Assembly (NCBI RefSeq): GCF_029626105.1 | Contig: NZ_JARUBH010000009.1 | Location: forward strand, 5,146,001 to 5,210,000 | DNA length: 64,000 bases | Reading direction: 5' to 3' | DNA from: Solwaraspora sp. WMMD792 | Lineage (GTDB): Bacteria > Actinomycetota > Actinomycetes > Mycobacteriales > Micromonosporaceae | In this document: positions 56,532 through 64,000 of the stretch, piece after piece | Layout: each line of letters begins with the position of its first letter | How positions within the stretch are numbered: the first letter of the stretch is position 1 | Made by a program: the position numbers and the translations under genes | Notes under the pieces: generated by a model | What the model was told of the DNA's origin: nothing | The model's input: the letters and a program-made list of their open reading frames with translations, nothing else | Database searches by the model: none

Positions 56532-57400
56532 CGACGGCTCCCCGGCGGCTCGGCGGCGTCCGGGACGATCCGGGGGCGTCCGCTGGCCTGCCACACCGCC
56601 AGCGCGTCGACGGTGTCCCGGACGTCGTGTACCCGGACTCCCCAGGCGCCGGCGGCGACCGCCAGCAGACTGGTGGCGGTGGTCGCCGCGGCCCGTTGGT
56701 CGACCGGCCGTGGCTGGCCTGCCGGGTCGGCGAGCAGTTGGCCCAGGTAGGACTTGCGGCTGGCCGCGAAGAGCAACGGGCAACCGAGGTCGAGCAGTTC
56801 GGGCAGACGGACGGTGAGCTGCCAGTTGTGCTCCGCCCGCTTGGCGAAGCCGAGACCGGGGTCGACGACGAGCCGGTCGGCGGCCACCCCGGCGGTCAGC
56901 GCGGCGTCGATCCGGGCGGCGAGCTCGGCGCGGACCTCGCCGACCACGTCGCGGTAGTGCGCCAGGTCCTGCATCCGGTCGGAGTGCCCGCGCCAGTGCA
57001 TCAGAATCCACGGGCAGCCGGCCTCGGCGACCACCTCGGCCATCCGTGGATCCGCCAGACCGCCGGAGACGTCGTTCACCACCGCCGCCCCGGCGGCCAG
57101 CGCGGCGGCGGCGACCGTCGCCCGGGTGGTGTCGATGCTCATCGGTACGCCGGCGGCGGCGAGCGCCCGGACGACCGGAAGCACCCGGGCCGCCTCGGTC
57201 TCGGCGTCGATCCGCACCGCGCCCGGCCGGGTCGACTCACCGCCGACGTCGATCAAGTCGGCGCCGTCGCGGTGCAGCCGGACGCCATGGGCGACGGCGG
57301 CGTCGAGGTCGGCGTACCGCCCGCCGTCGGAAAAGGAGTCAGGCGTGACGTTGAGAACGCCCATCACGACCGGCCGGGCCGGCCGCAGCAGATCGGTCAC
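56528..57400 (-). CDS. folP: Dihydropteroate synthase
   Basis: A protein of 290 residues from the GTG at 57400. Signature 1 VMGVLNVTPDSFSDGGRY and signature 2 LIDVGGESTRPGA are present, as are NDVSGGLADPRMAEV, DPGLGFAKRAEHN and ASRKSYLG. It joins the activated pterin to p-aminobenzoate and is the sulfonamide target. As the first gene of the fol operon, it starts opposite a 331-bp gap and the type IV-like cluster on the other strand; folE, hpt and ftsH, which follow in many actinobacteria, are not seen. Confidence 0.95.
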   Translation of the reverse strand: MTDLLRPARPVVMGVLNVTPDSFSDGGRYADLDAAVAHGVRLHRDGADLIDVGGESTRPGAVRIDAETEAARVLPVVRALAAAGVPMSIDTTRATVAAAALAAGAAVVNDVSGGLADPRMAEVVAEAGCPWILMHWRGHSDRMQDLAHYRDVVGEVRAELAARIDAALTAGVAADRLVVDPGLGFAKRAEHNWQLTVRLPELLDLGCPLLFAASRKSYLGQLLADPAGQPRPVDQRAAATTATSLLAVAAGAWGVRVHDVRDTVDALAVWQASGRPRIVPDAAEPPGSRR

Positions 57401-57731
57401 GGATAGGACGGTACCGGCGCGGCTCGGTGTCGGCCGGCAGAGGGCATGCTGGGTACTCTCGAACCAGACAACGGCGGCACGGCGGCGCTGTCGGTCGAGT
57501 TGCACGCAGCTTGTACCAGACAGGGGTGGCCCGTACGCTTTGCAGTTGCTGGTGGTCAGCGAGGGCAACGCCGAGGAGAAGGGCTGAAGTTGGACAAAAA
57601 GCCCACAAATCTTCACCGTACGCGGTGATCGCCGGACGCAGGGTCGAAACTCGCGGCACGACCCGACACGTCCGTGAGGCTGGACAACTGCAGTGCCCCG
57701 GCTTCGCCGGCCGCACACCGGGGAGGTTCCC
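57401..57731. other. 331-bp region between folP and the type IV-like cluster
   Basis: This is a divergent promoter region. It is less GC-rich than coding DNA and contains a 60-codon frame (57446-57628) described separately, a GTACC-rich stretch near the folP start, and a hairpin-prone segment near 57695-57725 just before the first gene of the cluster. No tRNA or recognised riboswitch fold was found by eye. Confidence 0.5.
57446..57628 (+). CDS. Possible small protein of 60 residues
   Basis: An ATG frame in the folP upstream gap: MLGTLEPDNGGTAALSVELH at the start, a central Arg/Gly-rich stretch, and a basic Lys/Arg-rich end. The start has only a weak ribosome binding site (GGCAGAGGGC, 8 bases upstream). 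Composition is like protein (Leu, Glu, Val) in the first half. It could be a real small gene or a chance frame; no family recognised. Confidence 0.3.
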   Translation: MLGTLEPDNGGTAALSVELHAACTRQGWPVRFAVAGGQRGQRRGEGLKLDKKPTNLHRTR

Positions 57732-58058
57732 ATGATCGAAACAACGCTCGTCGACACGGTCAACGCCGCCATGGCCTCCGTTGTCGACACGCTGCCGCTA
57801 CTGGCCGCGCCGGCCGGTGAGCCGGACCCGGCACCGACCGGCTTCAACACCGAGGGCGTTGTCTCCTTCCTCGCCAGCAAGGTCGCGCCGATCCTGCTGG
57901 CGGTGCTGGGCGTGATCTTCATCGGCCGGGCCAGCAAAGGTGAGATCTCCAAGGTCCTGACCAGCTCCGCGATCGCGATCGTGGGTCTGGCGTTCATCGC
58001 CGGAGCGGCGACGCTCTTCTTCGTCGGCGACTACCTCATCAACCTGATGTTCGAATAG
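57732..58058 (+). CDS. Small membrane protein, first gene of type IV-like module (VirB2/TrbC-like)
   Basis: A protein of 108 residues from the ATG at 57732 with GGGAGG upstream. An N-terminal amphipathic segment ends in LLAAPAGEPDPAP, followed by two hydrophobic helices (SKVAPILLAVLGVIFIG and SAIAIVGLAFIAGAATLFFVG) joined by a short basic loop (RASKGEISK). Two-helix proteins at this place precede PrgI in Gram-positive conjugation clusters and may act like the pilin-like VirB2/TrbC. The assignment rests on topology and neighbours. Confidence 0.65.
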   Translation: MIETTLVDTVNAAMASVVDTLPLLAAPAGEPDPAPTGFNTEGVVSFLASKVAPILLAVLGVIFIGRASKGEISKVLTSSAIAIVGLAFIAGAATLFFVGDYLINLMFE

Positions 58059-58073
58059 AGCGCGGGGCACAGG

Positions 58074-58436
58074 ATGCGGCTGCGTACCGACGACGACATC
58101 TACCGCGCCCGGCTGGTCTACCTCGGCCCGCCCGGCTACACGTTGCCGATCCACCTGCCATATGCCCAGTACGGGGTCTTCATCCTGCTCGTACCGCTCT
58201 ACATGTTCATCCACTGGGCGTTCACCTTCACCGTGGAGCTCTTCCCCGCCTGGGAGATCGCACTGGCGATCGTCACCACCTCCTTCATCTTCCGGTACGT
58301 CGACCCGGATCGGCCCGCCCGGATGGTGGTCCGGACCGCCCTCACCGACTGGCGCCGCACCAGGGAACCCGCCACCGAACAGCGAGACCCGCGGCTGGTC
58401 GCCAGTCACATCCGGATTCGGGAGGAGTTGGCATGA
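58074..58436 (+). CDS. PrgI-like membrane protein of type IV-like module
   Basis: A protein of 120 residues, 15 bases after the previous gene. RLVYLGPPGYTLPIHLPYAQ leads into two close membrane helices (YGVFILLVPLYMFIHWAF, and IALAIVTTSFIFRYVDPD), then RPARMVVRTALTDWRR and a charged tail. This is the shape of PrgI/VirB3-like proteins that pair with VirB4 ATPases in Gram-positive type IV secretion. Its stop overlaps the start of a 23-codon frame (ATGA). Confidence 0.72.
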   Translation: MRLRTDDDIYRARLVYLGPPGYTLPIHLPYAQYGVFILLVPLYMFIHWAFTFTVELFPAWEIALAIVTTSFIFRYVDPDRPARMVVRTALTDWRRTREPATEQRDPRLVASHIRIREELA

Positions 58437-58504
58437 CCCGCACCGACCACCGAACCGCAGCCGCCGCCCACCCGGCTGGCGGGCGGCGTGAGGCGATGGC
58501 ATGA
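58433..58504 (+). CDS. Very short coupled ORF (23 residues) between PrgI-like and VirB4-like genes
   Basis: The ATG at 58433 overlaps the upstream stop (ATGA) and has a strong GGAGGAG site 6 bases away. It encodes MTRTDHRTAAAAHPAGGRRE plus AMA and stops within the ATGA that starts the ATPase gene. It is too small for a fold. The likely role is to carry ribosomes across the gap so that the ATPase is translated in step with the membrane proteins. Confidence 0.45.
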   Translation: MTRTDHRTAAAAHPAGGRREAMA

Positions 58505-61500
58505 GCCGATCAACCCCGCCGGGCTCCTCCCACCCGGCCGGCCAGCCGGCCGGCACCAGCGGTAACGGTAAGCGATCGACCGACTACGACGCCGCGCTGG
58601 ACGAGTCGACCGACACCGAACTGGTCACCAGCCCCAGCCACGGCGCGGTCGCCTACTTCCAGGCACCCGCGGCGTCCCGCAGCAGCCGGCCGACGCGGAC
58701 CCCGCCGCCGGCACCACCAGTGCCCACCCCCAGAGCCGGTATGAGCGACAACACCGACATCGACTCACCCTTCCTGGACCTTTTCCCAGGTGCCGGTCCG
58801 GCCGGTGGCCACCAGCCGGGCCGCACGCCACGGACGGCGATCCGGCGCTCCGCCCAACACGACGCGATCGCACCACCAACGCGGCACGACGCCATCGAAC
58901 CGCCCGTCCGACACGACGCGATCGCACCGCCGGCCCAGCAGGCCGCCATCGGACCGCCCACCCGCCACGATCCGCAAGAGACTCCCGGCGACGCGTCAGC
59001 CGGGAACACCCCATCCGCCGGTCCGATCGGCTCGGCGCTGTCCGGTCCCCCCGACCCGCCGGTTCAGCGCCGGACTGCCACACCCACCCCGCGTACCGCC
59101 GGCGAACCGGCCCCGGCAGCCGAACCGGCCGCACCGCGCGACGGCCAGCCGGTCACGTCGGCGTCCACAGTGCCGCCGTCACCACCGCCGGCACCGGTCC
59201 TGCCGCCTCCGCCCGCCGCCACCCACCGGCCCGGTCCGACCACGCAACACGTTCGGAACCGGCCCGACTCGGCACACCCGGCCGAGGCAGCGCAGCGAGA
59301 TGGCGCACCAGCGCAACGCCGGCCACCGGCGATGCCGCACCACACCGCACCCGCACCCCAGCAGCACGCCGCACCCGCACCTCAGCAGCACGCCGCACCC
59401 GCACCTCACCAGCGCGCCGCACCCGCACCGGTGCACCAGCCGCCGCCGGCCAATGCACCGGTAAGCGGCAAGGGCAAGGGCAAGCGGGCCCGCCGGCGAG
59501 CTGCCGAGGCCGACCGGCCGGACAAGCTGATCAAGCCGGTGCCGATCCGCCCCCCGAAGGTCAAGTTCACCGACCGGGACCCGGCCGCCGAACTTGCCAT
59601 CACCGAGATCGCCGGCCATCTCACCTTCACCCCGAACACCGTCACCGCCTGGTACTGGCTGCCCGAGGTCCGCTGGGCGTTCCGGCCCGACGCCGAGCGG
59701 GAGGTGCTGCTGTCAGCCATCTCCGAGCAGTACGCCGGCCTGGCCGGATTCCGGCTGCACCTGCGCCGCACGACGCGGCCGTTCCCGGCCGACGAGTGGG
59801 CCCGCACCATCGACTCGCTGACCAGCAACCCCCTGCCCAACGTCTCCGACGCGGTCTCCTGGTCGGACCACCTGGTCGCCGCCCAACGGCACCTGATGGC
59901 GGTCAACCACGCCGAAGGGCAGACCTATCTGGGCATCACCTTCGCCCGCCGGTCCCTCGGCGACTCACTGTCCGAACGGGTGCTGCGGCTGTTCGGCCGC
60001 GGCGTCGCCGAGAGCGAACGCCGCCGGCTCGGCCGGATGGTCGAGCAGTTCGACGAGGTGCTGGGTGCCTTCGGCATGCGGGGTCGACGGGTCACCGCCG
60101 GCGAACTCGAATGGCTGCTCTACCGGTCGGTCGCGCTCTGCATGAACCCGCCAACCATGCTCTCGCCGGTCCGGGACGGCAACTGGGACCGCGGTGACCT
60201 GCTCGCCCTCACCGAGCAGGTCGAGCGCTACCGCACCCCCTACGGCTCGACACTCAAGCTGGTCAACCGGATGACCGGCGAGGAGCGACACGTCGCGGTG
60301 CTGGCGGTCGGCCGGATGGAGCCGCTGGAGATCCCGGAGCGGCACGAGCCGTGGATGCACTTCCACGAACGGCTGCCGTGGCCGATGGAGATCTCCTCCC
60401 GGATCGACCTGCTCGGGCCAGCCGACTCGTTCCGCAACCTGGAGCACCGGCTCCGGATGATCCGTTCCCAGCAACTGGACTACGCCGAGCACGGCATCGA
60501 CGCGCCGCCGGAGCTGGAACGGCTCGCCAAGCGGGCCCTGCACATCGGTGACGAGATGACCACCGGCCTGCCGGTCGAGTCCGCCCGGGCGCACGGCTGG
60601 CACCGGATCGCCGTCGGTGGCCGGACCCGCGAAGAGTGTCTGGAACGGGCCCGCCGGCTGATCCAGCTGTACTCCCGGGAAATGCGCATCTCGCTGCAGC
60701 ATCCGAAGAACCAGGACTGGCTGGCCCGGGAGTTCATCCCTGGGGAGCCGGTGGCGAACACCGGATACATCCGGCGGATGCCGGTCAACCTGCTGGCCGC
60801 CGCGCTGCCGCAGGCCGCGTCGACGGTCGGCGACCGGCGCGGCGACCTGATCGGGCGTACCGCCGGCACCTGCCGCCGGCCGGTCTTCCTCGACCTGCAC
60901 TTCCCGATGGAGGTCCGGGAACGTTCCGGGCTCGCCGTCTTCGTCGCCGAGCCGGGCGGCGGCAAGTCGACCCTGCTCGGCGCCCTCGGCTACCTGGCCG
61001 CCCGGCGCGGCGTGCAGGTCACCCTGCTCGACCCGTCCGGGCCGCTGGCCCGGCTCTGCGCCATGCCGGAGCTACGGCCGTACTCGCGGGTGCTCAACCT
61101 GACCGGTTCCGAACAGGGCACCCTGGCACCGTACTCGCTCATCCCGACACCGGTGCGCGGCGAGTTCGCCGCCGGAGCCGCCGGCGACCGCGAGTACGAG
61201 ATCTCCGTGTCGAACGCCCGGGCCGAACGCCGGATGCTGGTCCAGGACATCTGCATGATGCTGGTGCCGCCGCAGGTGGCCCGGGAGTCGTCGACGGCCA
61301 CCCTGCTGCGGCACGCGGTCCGCCAGGTGCCCGCCGAGGAGACCTCCACGCTGGACGACGTGGTCGCCTGCCTCAGCGGGCTCGACGACGACGGCCGCGA
61401 GCTGGCCAACCTGCTGTTGGACACCGCCGAGATGCCGCTGGCCCTGCTGTTCTTCGGCTCACCGGAGCCGGGCCTGCTCGGTGCCGACGCCGCGCTGACC

Positions 61501-62118
61501 GTGATCACCATGGCCGGGCTGCGGCTGCCCGATCTGAAGATCGAACGCGAGTACTGGTCGGCCGAGGAGGCGTTGGCGCTGCCGATGCTGCACACCGCCC
61601 ACCGGCTGGCGGTGCGGCGCTGCTACGGCGGCTCGATGGGGTCGCGCAAACTGGTCGGCCTGGACGAGGCGCACTTCATGGAGGGCTGGCGGTCCGGCCG
61701 GTCCTTCCTGGTCCGGCTGGCCCGTGACTCCCGCAAGTGGAACCTTGCCGCACTGGTCTCGTCGCAGAATCCACGGGACATCCTCGGGCTGGACGTGCAG
61801 AACCTGGTCTCCACCGTCTTCGTCGGCCGGATCGCCGAGGACGAGGAGATCGCCGCCGAGGCGCTGCGCCTGCTGCGCGTCCCGGTCGACGACGGTTACG
61901 AGGCGACGCTCGCCTCGTTGTCTAGCGTAGACAGTTCTTCCGCGAGCCGGCTGGGCTTCCGGGAGTTCATCATGCGCGACGTGGACGGTCGGGTGCAGAA
62001 GGTCCGGGTGGACGTCTCGTACGTGGACGGACTGCTCGACCATCTGGACACCACACCCGGTACGCCGCAGGCGGCACCCGCCGGTCTGCCGACCGCGCTC
62101 AGTGACCTGGAGGTATGA
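58501..62118 (+). CDS. VirB4/TraC-like conjugation-type ATPase
   Basis: A protein of 1205 residues. The first 330 or so are disordered and Pro/Ala/His-rich, with internal repeats (RHDAIAPP-type, then QQHAAPAP-type). The rest is the VirB4 layout: an N-terminal domain with PKVKFTDRDPAAELAITEI and a membrane-associated region, then the C-terminal motor with Walker A EPGGGKST (residues 817-824), LLDPSG, and Walker B LVGLDEAHF (Asp1055-Glu1056), followed by ALVSSQNPRDI. It would power assembly or substrate transfer of a type IV secretion machine at the inner membrane. Confidence 0.85.
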   Translation: MSRSTPPGSSHPAGQPAGTSGNGKRSTDYDAALDESTDTELVTSPSHGAVAYFQAPAASRSSRPTRTPPPAPPVPTPRAGMSDNTDIDSPFLDLFPGAGPAGGHQPGRTPRTAIRRSAQHDAIAPPTRHDAIEPPVRHDAIAPPAQQAAIGPPTRHDPQETPGDASAGNTPSAGPIGSALSGPPDPPVQRRTATPTPRTAGEPAPAAEPAAPRDGQPVTSASTVPPSPPPAPVLPPPPAATHRPGPTTQHVRNRPDSAHPAEAAQRDGAPAQRRPPAMPHHTAPAPQQHAAPAPQQHAAPAPHQRAAPAPVHQPPPANAPVSGKGKGKRARRRAAEADRPDKLIKPVPIRPPKVKFTDRDPAAELAITEIAGHLTFTPNTVTAWYWLPEVRWAFRPDAEREVLLSAISEQYAGLAGFRLHLRRTTRPFPADEWARTIDSLTSNPLPNVSDAVSWSDHLVAAQRHLMAVNHAEGQTYLGITFARRSLGDSLSERVLRLFGRGVAESERRRLGRMVEQFDEVLGAFGMRGRRVTAGELEWLLYRSVALCMNPPTMLSPVRDGNWDRGDLLALTEQVERYRTPYGSTLKLVNRMTGEERHVAVLAVGRMEPLEIPERHEPWMHFHERLPWPMEISSRIDLLGPADSFRNLEHRLRMIRSQQLDYAEHGIDAPPELERLAKRALHIGDEMTTGLPVESARAHGWHRIAVGGRTREECLERARRLIQLYSREMRISLQHPKNQDWLAREFIPGEPVANTGYIRRMPVNLLAAALPQAASTVGDRRGDLIGRTAGTCRRPVFLDLHFPMEVRERSGLAVFVAEPGGGKSTLLGALGYLAARRGVQVTLLDPSGPLARLCAMPELRPYSRVLNLTGSEQGTLAPYSLIPTPVRGEFAAGAAGDREYEISVSNARAERRMLVQDICMMLVPPQVARESSTATLLRHAVRQVPAEETSTLDDVVACLSGLDDDGRELANLLLDTAEMPLALLFFGSPEPGLLGADAALTVITMAGLRLPDLKIEREYWSAEEALALPMLHTAHRLAVRRCYGGSMGSRKLVGLDEAHFMEGWRSGRSFLVRLARDSRKWNLAALVSSQNPRDILGLDVQNLVSTVFVGRIAEDEEIAAEALRLLRVPVDDGYEATLASLSSVDSSSASRLGFREFIMRDVDGRVQKVRVDVSYVDGLLDHLDTTPGTPQAAPAGLPTALSDLEV

Positions 62119-62119
62119 C

Positions 62120-64000
62120 GTGGCGAGGACCGCGACCCGGTGCACCGCGCTCCTGCTCGCCGTCCTGACAGCCGCCGTGGCGAGCATCTCCTGGCCGGTA
62201 CTCGGCGCGGCCACGCCGGCCCAGGCCGCCCCGGTCGCGCCGGTCGCCCAGCTGCCCGCCCAGGCACCGGTCGACCTGTGTCCGGTCGAGGCCTGGCAGG
62301 CCGACTTCCGGGCCTGTCTGGACCGGCTGCAGGACGTCAGCTCGGCTCGTGCGCAGTGCCTCGACCCACCGGCACCGAGCGCCCCCGACTCCGGCTTCGG
62401 CGGTTGGTTCGCCACCCAGCCGGAGACCTCCGAGGGTGCCATCGGCCACTACACCAACTACGGGTACGCCGGCTACCGGTTCCCGACGTACGACCTCAAC
62501 GGCGGGTGCGCCTCCTCGGTGGTGAACGCCGACGTCGGCGTGTTCAACGGGGTCGCCAACCTGGAGATGATGGTCGCCACCGCGATCGTCGGCGCGTCCA
62601 ACGCGATCCGGGAACGGGCCTGGGACCCGGGGACCATGTACGCCTGGGCCGACCCGCTGGTGGCGCAGGCGACCACCGCGATCTACGACGAGGTCTTCAC
62701 CGTCTTCGGGCTGATCACCCTCTGCGTGGTCGGCCTCTACCTGATCTGGCGGTCACGTCAGTCGGACATGAGCAACATGATCACGACGGCCGGCTGGGCA
62801 GTCCTGATCATGGTGGTGGTCACCGCGATCGCCGCTTGGCCGGTCCGCTCGGCGAACCTGGCGGACGAGGCGCTGACCAGCACGTTGGGCGTGGTCCACG
62901 AGGCCGTCGGCCCGCGTGCCGTCGAGGTGACACCGGAGGAGTGCCCGTACCCCGACCCGCAACAGTGTGAGGATCTGCGTCCACCAGCCGTCCGGGCCAG
63001 CGACACGACCACGTCGTCGATGCTCTACCGGAACTGGCTGCGCGGCGTGCTCGGCTCGGCGGACAGCGACACCGCCAAGAAGTACGGCCCGGTGCTCTAC
63101 GACGCCCAGGCGTTCACCTGGTCGGAGATCGAGGAGATCCGGGCCGATCCGGCGCTGCGGGAACCGATCATCGAGGCCAAGAACCAGCAGTGGATGAAGG
63201 TCGCCGAGCAGATCCGCACCGAGGATCCGGAGGCGTACGAGCATCTGCAGGGCATCCGGGAGATGGACCGGGTCGGCACCGGACTGATCGCGATCTTCGC
63301 GGCGGCCATGTTCGCCATGTTCGATCTCGCCGCGTCGCTGCTCGTCCTGCTCGGATTCCTGCTGTTCCGCTGGGCGGTCGTCGCCGCGCCGATCCTCGGG
63401 ACCATCGGTTTGCTCCGGCCGGCCGGCGCGGGGATGCGTCGACTCGGCAACGCGGTCGTCGCCGCCGTCTTCAACATCGCGATCTTCGGCACCGGGGCGG
63501 CCGTCTACCTGTTCGCCGTCGACCTGATCATGAGCACGCCCACCCTGCCGGGATGGCTGCAGGTGGTACTGATCTGGCTCTGCGGCATGGTCGGCTGGCT
63601 GCTGCTGCGTCCGTACCGACGGATCACCGACCTGGGCGGCCGGGACGGCGGCGGCAGTTCGTGGCACCTGCGGTACTTCCGGGAGACCCGGGAGACCCGC
63701 GAGCCCGAGCAGGTCGTGGTCAAGTCCAAGGACGGACGGGACCAGACCGTCGTCAAGCAGACCGTGGTGCGGCCGGAGGCCCGGTTGGAGGACCCGAGCA
63801 GCGACAAATCCGCCGGTGGTGCCGGCGGCACCGGACCGGCCAGGGAGCGGCCGGACGGCCGGGAGGACAGCTCCGAACCCACCACCCAGCCCGGGTCGAC
63901 CCGACCATCGAGTCGCCCCCGTCGCGCGTCGACGTGGACCGCGCCCGACGTCCCGGCCGAAGAGCACCAGTACGCCGTCTACCGGCCCGACAGCACCCGC
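62120..64000 (+). CDS. VirB6/TrbL-like polytopic membrane protein (3' end outside window)
   Basis: The frame begins with GTG at 62120, one base after the ATPase stop, and stays open for 627 codons to the window end. Signal-like N-terminus (ALLLAVLTAAVASI, cleavage near TPAQA-AP), an extracytoplasmic part with paired cysteines, then about five or six helices (TVFGLITLCVVGLYLIW, MVVVTAIAAWPV, a long hydrophobic pair near residues 390-430, FNIAIFGTGAAVYLF, LIWLCGMVGWLLL) and a hydrophilic C-terminal tail. Topology and place after VirB4 fit the VirB6/TrbL channel subunit. Confidence 0.75.
   Translation, partial: MARTATRCTALLLAVLTAAVASISWPVLGAATPAQAAPVAPVAQLPAQAPVDLCPVEAWQADFRACLDRLQDVSSARAQCLDPPAPSAPDSGFGGWFATQPETSEGAIGHYTNYGYAGYRFPTYDLNGGCASSVVNADVGVFNGVANLEMMVATAIVGASNAIRERAWDPGTMYAWADPLVAQATTAIYDEVFTVFGLITLCVVGLYLIWRSRQSDMSNMITTAGWAVLIMVVVTAIAAWPVRSANLADEALTSTLGVVHEAVGPRAVEVTPEECPYPDPQQCEDLRPPAVRASDTTTSSMLYRNWLRGVLGSADSDTAKKYGPVLYDAQAFTWSEIEEIRADPALREPIIEAKNQQWMKVAEQIRTEDPEAYEHLQGIREMDRVGTGLIAIFAAAMFAMFDLAASLLVLLGFLLFRWAVVAAPILGTIGLLRPAGAGMRRLGNAVVAAVFNIAIFGTGAAVYLFAVDLIMSTPTLPGWLQVVLIWLCGMVGWLLLRPYRRITDLGGRDGGGSSWHLRYFRETRETREPEQVVVKSKDGRDQTVVKQTVVRPEARLEDPSSDKSAGGAGGTGPARERPDGREDSSEPTTQPGSTRPSSRPRRASTWTAPDVPAEEHQYAVYRPDSTR

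Follow-up and report, generated by a model that had tools for sequence, protein, structure and literature searches.

We analyzed a window of 64,000 nucleotides from Solwaraspora sp. WMMD792 (contig NZ_JARUBH010000009.1; G000:C9:5146001-5210000 in a host genome of 7.4 Mb and 10 contigs) and followed a six-gene set, A-F, that begins near the end of the window and continues past it, with folP on one side and folE and ftsH on the other, all on the minus strand. A-F is, with high confidence, a resident type IV secretion system (T4SS)-type module. Our leading explanation, held with modest confidence, is that it is a domesticated, resident T4SS-like channel of the Tcp kind that serves differentiation or sporulation. 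The developmental role taken alone is an argument by analogy that we put forward tentatively, and any single substrate is proposed more tentatively still. A preliminary description of the window, made from its letters alone, had pointed to four closely spaced genes at 57732-64000 (A-D), read as either the edge of an integrative conjugative element (ICE) or a resident machine of the family. All four are open frames, and both the residence and the channel-type gene content reported below uphold the second alternative.

A VirB4-type gene (C) is present in 145 of the 150 sampled family genomes at E≤0.001, and all of A-F was found in each of the 22 primary loci compared; 18 of these stretches also include folP and 15 include folE, with some of them ending early. 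Conservation at the same locus across the Micromonosporaceae, which had been suggested as a check, is seen in the 65 named loci that span 20 kb or more: A and B occur in 64 each, C, D, E and F in all 65, folP in 64, H in 63, and folE and ftsH in 55 each. The best 80 of 483 named VirB4 relatives come from Micromonospora, Salinispora, Asanoa, Phytohabitans, Plantactinospora, Actinoplanes and related Micromonosporaceae. Five genomes gave no VirB4 match: the three sampled from genus g23; G036, in which B is retained next to folP at the edge of a contig; and G081. Four loci, those of genera g5, g11, g13 and g14, carry A-F at a site apart from folP, in stretches that contain none of G, H and I. Trees of FolP and VirB4 from 15 genomes both group g5/g11/g13/g14, g9 with g16, and g12 with g38 (FolP-tree support for these shared groupings, 83-100), and the agreement holds even where the two genes are unlinked. 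Because the trees share these groupings, we conclude that A-F is vertically inherited in the Micromonosporaceae. Median dN/dS values, calculated from best BLAST segments instead of whole genes for 13 sequences (10 for folE; ftsH is without a value), are 0.10 for C, 0.10 for B, 0.17 for A and 0.19 for D, with 0.26 for folP and 0.20 for folE among the flank genes, so that purifying selection on C and B is stronger than on folP. The values for F (0.41), H (0.45) and E (0.51) lie above that of folP, indicating that these genes evolve faster than folP.

The VirB4-like ATPase with intact Walker motifs recognized earlier is confirmed. C matches Pfam AAA_10 (4.6e-21), an alignment of 16 relatives shows no variation at its Walker A (G469, G471, K472) or Walker B (D705, E706) residues, and it is the one AAA_10 gene in the host genome; it also matches NCBIfam TcpF at 7e-18, far under that model's cut-off. 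On these motifs we classify C as a VirB4-type ATPase, a component expected of a Tcp-type channel along with a VirB8-like protein and a peptidoglycan hydrolase. The VirB8-like protein would be E: its counterpart in Micromonospora lupini was modeled with a mean pLDDT of 76.4, and the modeled domain aligns best with VirB8-family proteins, while a Foldseek search with the model gave no match at E≤0.001. The putative hydrolase is F, which carries a Peptidase_M23 domain (7.7e-25) and a lysozyme-like SLT_3 match below cut-off (0.012); it follows D and E and corresponds to the VirB1-like hydrolase anticipated past the window. Because VirB6-, VirB8- and VirB1-like partners directly follow C, it is not an isolated ATPase, the finding named beforehand as speaking against a secretion module. 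The two-helix region of A is near-invariant in 29 aligned sequences, and of the 65 full-length named loci, 64 keep A as a protein. At E≤1 neither Pfam nor NCBIfam gives A a match; its topology would be VirB2-like. The N-terminus of C is a Pro/Ala-rich extension of approximately 350 residues with short repeats (58501-59550). VirB4 frames read from the first start are 1047-1438 amino acids long in the primary family loci and 825-848 in another family, f17.

We propose that C would power or assemble an envelope channel on a VirB6/VirB8 platform, as homology suggests, with E as a VirB8-like scaffold, B as the protein at the VirB3/TcpE position and A perhaps as a channel or pilin-like subunit. F, through its M23 domain, would open peptidoglycan for the channel. 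The machine may move protein, possibly DNA, across the envelope or septum in hyphal differentiation or sporulation, much as proposed for the Streptomyces Cmd proteins, and protein is favored as the substrate because no intact DNA motor is linked. According to PMC2782261, deletions in cmdABCDEF delay aerial growth and sporulation and disturb septation and chromosome segregation, whereas deletion of cmdA alone affects none of these. CmdB, a membrane-bound protein, no longer complements when residues 90 and 404 are changed, a result that the authors qualify by pointing to instability; they have already proposed a type IV-like channel for the Cmd proteins (PMC2782261). In the literature searched, with most subscription journals outside its reach, we found no experiments on relatives of A-F beyond those on cmdABCDEF in the accessible part of that report, and no further description or function of the module in Micromonosporaceae.

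Several observations weigh against this explanation. A-F is absent from all three g23 genomes: folP stands without A-F in the single-contig genome G022, and in G070 an H-like gene adjoins folP with no A-F present, a pattern that suggests loss by deletion. The earlier naming of B as PrgI-like holds weakly: Pfam PrgI matches none of 22 aligned B-type proteins at E≤1, and profile comparison with TcpE-type proteins gives a weak match (hhalign probability 34, E 4e-4), leaving B as a possible VirB3/TcpE/PrgI-like protein. A and B are placed provisionally by position, topology and weak profile evidence. The VirB6/TrbL-like identity given to D stands through its relatives and not through the window's D itself, which has no credible Pfam match; a TrbL/VirB6 match occurs in 2 of 16 aligned D-type proteins (best 2e-7), suggesting that D may be VirB6-like, and a structure model of D (mean pLDDT 44.6) was not used. 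Lastly, the VirB4 lineages of A-F and cmd are distant, and cmd function is therefore extended to the Micromonosporaceae with caution.

That A-F is the edge or a remnant of an ICE, the other alternative of the preliminary description, is very improbable. VirB4 relatives do occur on plasmids, and that description saw only the start of the set, but the set has a fixed context, ends at folE/ftsH and is inherited vertically across the family. Relaxase, integrase and VirD4 coupling-protein families have no match among the ten linked proteins from A to I (the VirD4 family PF02534 was not searched genome-wide, nor att repeats as such), the host genome has no TrwC relaxase (other relaxase families were not searched genome-wide), and its only TraG-D_C match is an FtsK/EccC-like paralogue of H. 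GC, checked for a foreign origin, is even across the locus at 0.68-0.75. We thus observed neither the relaxase, VirD4, and integrase or att sites nor the sporadic distribution that mark a conjugation system or ICE. With neither a relaxase nor an integrase nor VirD4 linked to it, A-F was probably domesticated from a conjugation channel. A tRNA-Ser called inside the C frame was considered as an att site and rejected as a false call, since it was not found in a scan of seven relatives that included L071, a locus with a VirB4 core 100% identical to that of the window. It is next to inconceivable that A-F is a decaying relic without function. The loss in g23 and the degenerate neighbor H would fit decay, but the motifs of C are intact, its dN/dS is as low as 0.10 with a median identity of 0.90, the set stays together where it lies away from folP, and the selection on A-D contradicts decay.

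We consider it unlikely that A-F is a resident DNA machine, transferring chromosomal DNA from cell to cell or taking it up with an unlinked motor such as one of the FtsK type. An FtsK-domain or coupling-type protein is encoded in four of the five plasmid stretches described below, H and its unlinked paralogue are FtsK/EccC-like, and plasmid transfer requires six genes of SLP2, of which three resemble cmd genes (PMC2782261). However, cmd deletion left transfer of an SLP2-derived plasmid unchanged in the same report. In addition, H was rejected as a coupling motor, since its Walker A is broken at this locus and in 56 of 66 named loci (intact in 10) and it is absent beside A-F in the four genera where A-F lies away from folP. 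The unlinked paralogue of H in the same genome (L167:8791-11421, minus strand; G000:C9 near 3335786) has 876 amino acids and an intact Walker A, and lies beside genes that we take to be gltB/gltD-like. Protein secretion unrelated to development, for example towards competitors or hosts, also seems rather unlikely to us. The retention of channel and hydrolase without an active linked DNA motor would suit it, and the M. lupini paper treats virB4 under secretion systems (PMC4182475), yet near-universal, single-copy conservation is more in keeping with a core role than with a variable weapon. A domesticated, resident channel serving differentiation or sporulation is the explanation that we continue to prefer.

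The features of the locus are given in Table 1, where positions above 64000 continue the numbering of the window past its end. Neighbors within A-F overlap or sit at most 64 bases apart, and F is followed by accessory genes, then folE and ftsH. A GC3-based caller picked B, C and D and did not pick A, which overlaps a longer minus-strand frame continuing from folP; the case for A is its conservation.

Table 1. Features of the folP-folE interval in window coordinates
Feature	Position	Strand	Description
Upstream region of A-F	57332..57731	+	Between folP (-) and A; conserved short blocks; 66 regions aligned, motifs counted
A	57732-58058	+	108 amino acids; open frame; two hydrophobic helices with a short polar loop between
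B	58074-58436	+	120 amino acids; open frame; short membrane protein at VirB3/TcpE/PrgI position
C	58501-62118	+	1205 amino acids; open frame; VirB4-type ATPase (from motifs)
D	62102-64048	+	648 amino acids; open frame; putative VirB6/TrbL-like membrane protein; window ends inside D at 64000
E	64055-64603 (L009:8055-8603), past window	+	Predicted VirB8-like
F	64567-65727 (L009:8567-9727), past window	+	Putative M23 peptidoglycan hydrolase
G	65746-66348, past window	+	Open reading frame call
x208	66389-67015, past window	-	Sole minus-strand gene within the A-to-I stretch
H	67143-69959, past window	+	FtsK/EccC type
I	69956-70648, past window	+	Open reading frame call

Upstream of A, a 9-base element, ACNC(A/T)GNGT, at 57636 is conserved in 50 of 66 regions against a background of 0.024 per 430 bases, and it lies at -93 to -103 in many loci. 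This core resembles the middle of the BldD box, TNAC(N)5GTNA as given in PMC4151990. The full box fits just 4 of the 66 regions, three of them Actinoplanes-type loci (L241, L243 and L246), and BldD control of A-F is for that reason not claimed. A WhiA-like GACAC is not enriched upstream of A (23/66 compared with 0.59 in shuffles).

Among the VirB4 matches listed from plasmid records (40 of 275 records), those are 34-37% identical that lie in Streptomyces, Nonomuraea and Pseudonocardia and 31-33% identical in Rhodococcus and Prescottella, and one Nonomuraea record at 29% is chromosome-sized. In the VirB4 tree, to which long-branch warnings apply, the Micromonosporaceae form one clade (14 rows, 100/100) within a larger group (24 rows, 99/98) that adds a clade of these plasmids with chromosomal genes of family f3; f17 and cmd fall outside it. 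Chromosomal VirB4 occurs in 80/80 genomes of f17 (62 genera) and 80/80 of f3 (44 genera), and a CmdB-type match in 26/26 genomes of genus g66. We identify f17 as the family of Nonomuraea because its clade contains a named record, and g66 as Streptomyces from its cmd-like operon and K90; f3 is presumably Pseudonocardiaceae and f2 presumably Mycobacteriaceae, both guesses. In a class-wide sample VirB4 was found in 65 of 394 genomes; the 20 unmatched genomes that are listed all belong to f2, the other 309 being unlisted. Whole modules were seen among these relatives only in the loci read (L091, L092, L095-L099, L101, L153 and L154). At one f17 locus the first gene carries a TcpC domain and B a TcpE domain; YchF neighbors another (L101). 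In 3 of 80 f3 genomes (G682, G685 and G654) the VirB4 match falls into two parts at the P-loop, with no stops. The insert of G682 (L254:456-4745) is in frame between the Walker lysine and serine and has a LAGLIDADG-like domain (2.1e-7), and we read it as an intein in the P-loop of a resident VirB4.

Further sets occur within the family. Two genomes of genus g42 have a second A-F set elsewhere (L089 in G100, L106 in G089; VirB4 64-65% identical), followed in L106 by an FtsK-domain gene with FtsK_alpha, and this set looks like a mobile or plasmid-derived cousin. Single genomes of the family and g66 also carry additional, distant clusters of VirB4 type that include M23 hydrolases and small two-helix genes (L107 in G023; L103 and L105 in g66).

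Comparison with known systems places A-F among conjugation-type channels. With the Tcp/ICEBs1-type conjugation systems of Firmicutes it shares the TcpF match of C and the predicted VirB8 fold of E; it differs in having no linked relaxase or coupling protein among its ten proteins. Five plasmid stretches (NZ_CP050694.1, NZ_CP029341.1, NZ_CP107854.1, NZ_CP080522.1 and NC_023144.1) have, like A-F, small genes immediately before VirB4 and, after it, genes of the D, E and hydrolase types in a row. A-F shares ancestry with transfer modules of actinobacterial plasmids. The five stretches differ in being plasmid-borne, in the FtsK-domain or coupling-type gene of four of them and in a C40/NlpC hydrolase in four; MOB-suite rates all five non-mobilizable, and their incomplete gene table annotates no relaxase, no dedicated relaxase search having been made on them. 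ICEs of actinobacteria are surveyed in PMC3218068, and PMC9513070 reports a defective ICE near the chromosome middle in all its Streptomyces strains, which we guess to be cmd. For M. lupini, the accessible account describes one virB4 (MiLup08_42651) among unknown genes and no six-gene module (PMC4182475); the genome holds the family locus (L214), and MiLup08_42651 is presumably the same gene.

A distant relative is cmdABCDEF (SCO4126-4131), likewise a resident six-gene set with a VirB4-type ATPase and VirB6-like, single-helix and two-helix proteins. The g66 loci fit this operon by gene order (a cmd-like operon was read in L153), with the Walker lysine at residue 90; residue 404 is D in both g66 loci read, compared with K in PMC2782261. 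Cmd has its VirB4 split over two genes, a different gene order, no hydrolase among the six genes and a TraG-like CmdA (TraG-D_C 6.6e-4, below cut-off). Because the order differs, VirB4 is split and the two are distant in the tree, with its long-branch warnings, we do not regard A-F and cmd as orthologous operons. A possible but doubtful broader reading is that chromosomes of mycelial actinobacteria took up conjugation-type channels on more than one occasion (in Micromonosporaceae, the family of Nonomuraea, f3 and Streptomyces), and that these channels shed their relaxase and became core differentiation machines, the folP-folE module being the Micromonosporaceae version without a working linked DNA motor. 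A-F, a secretion-type machine that is near-universal and under strong selection in a family noted for its antibiotic producers, connects plasmid conjugation modules with the Cmd proteins of Streptomyces, which are little understood, and makes the reuse of conjugation channels for development in actinobacteria directly testable.
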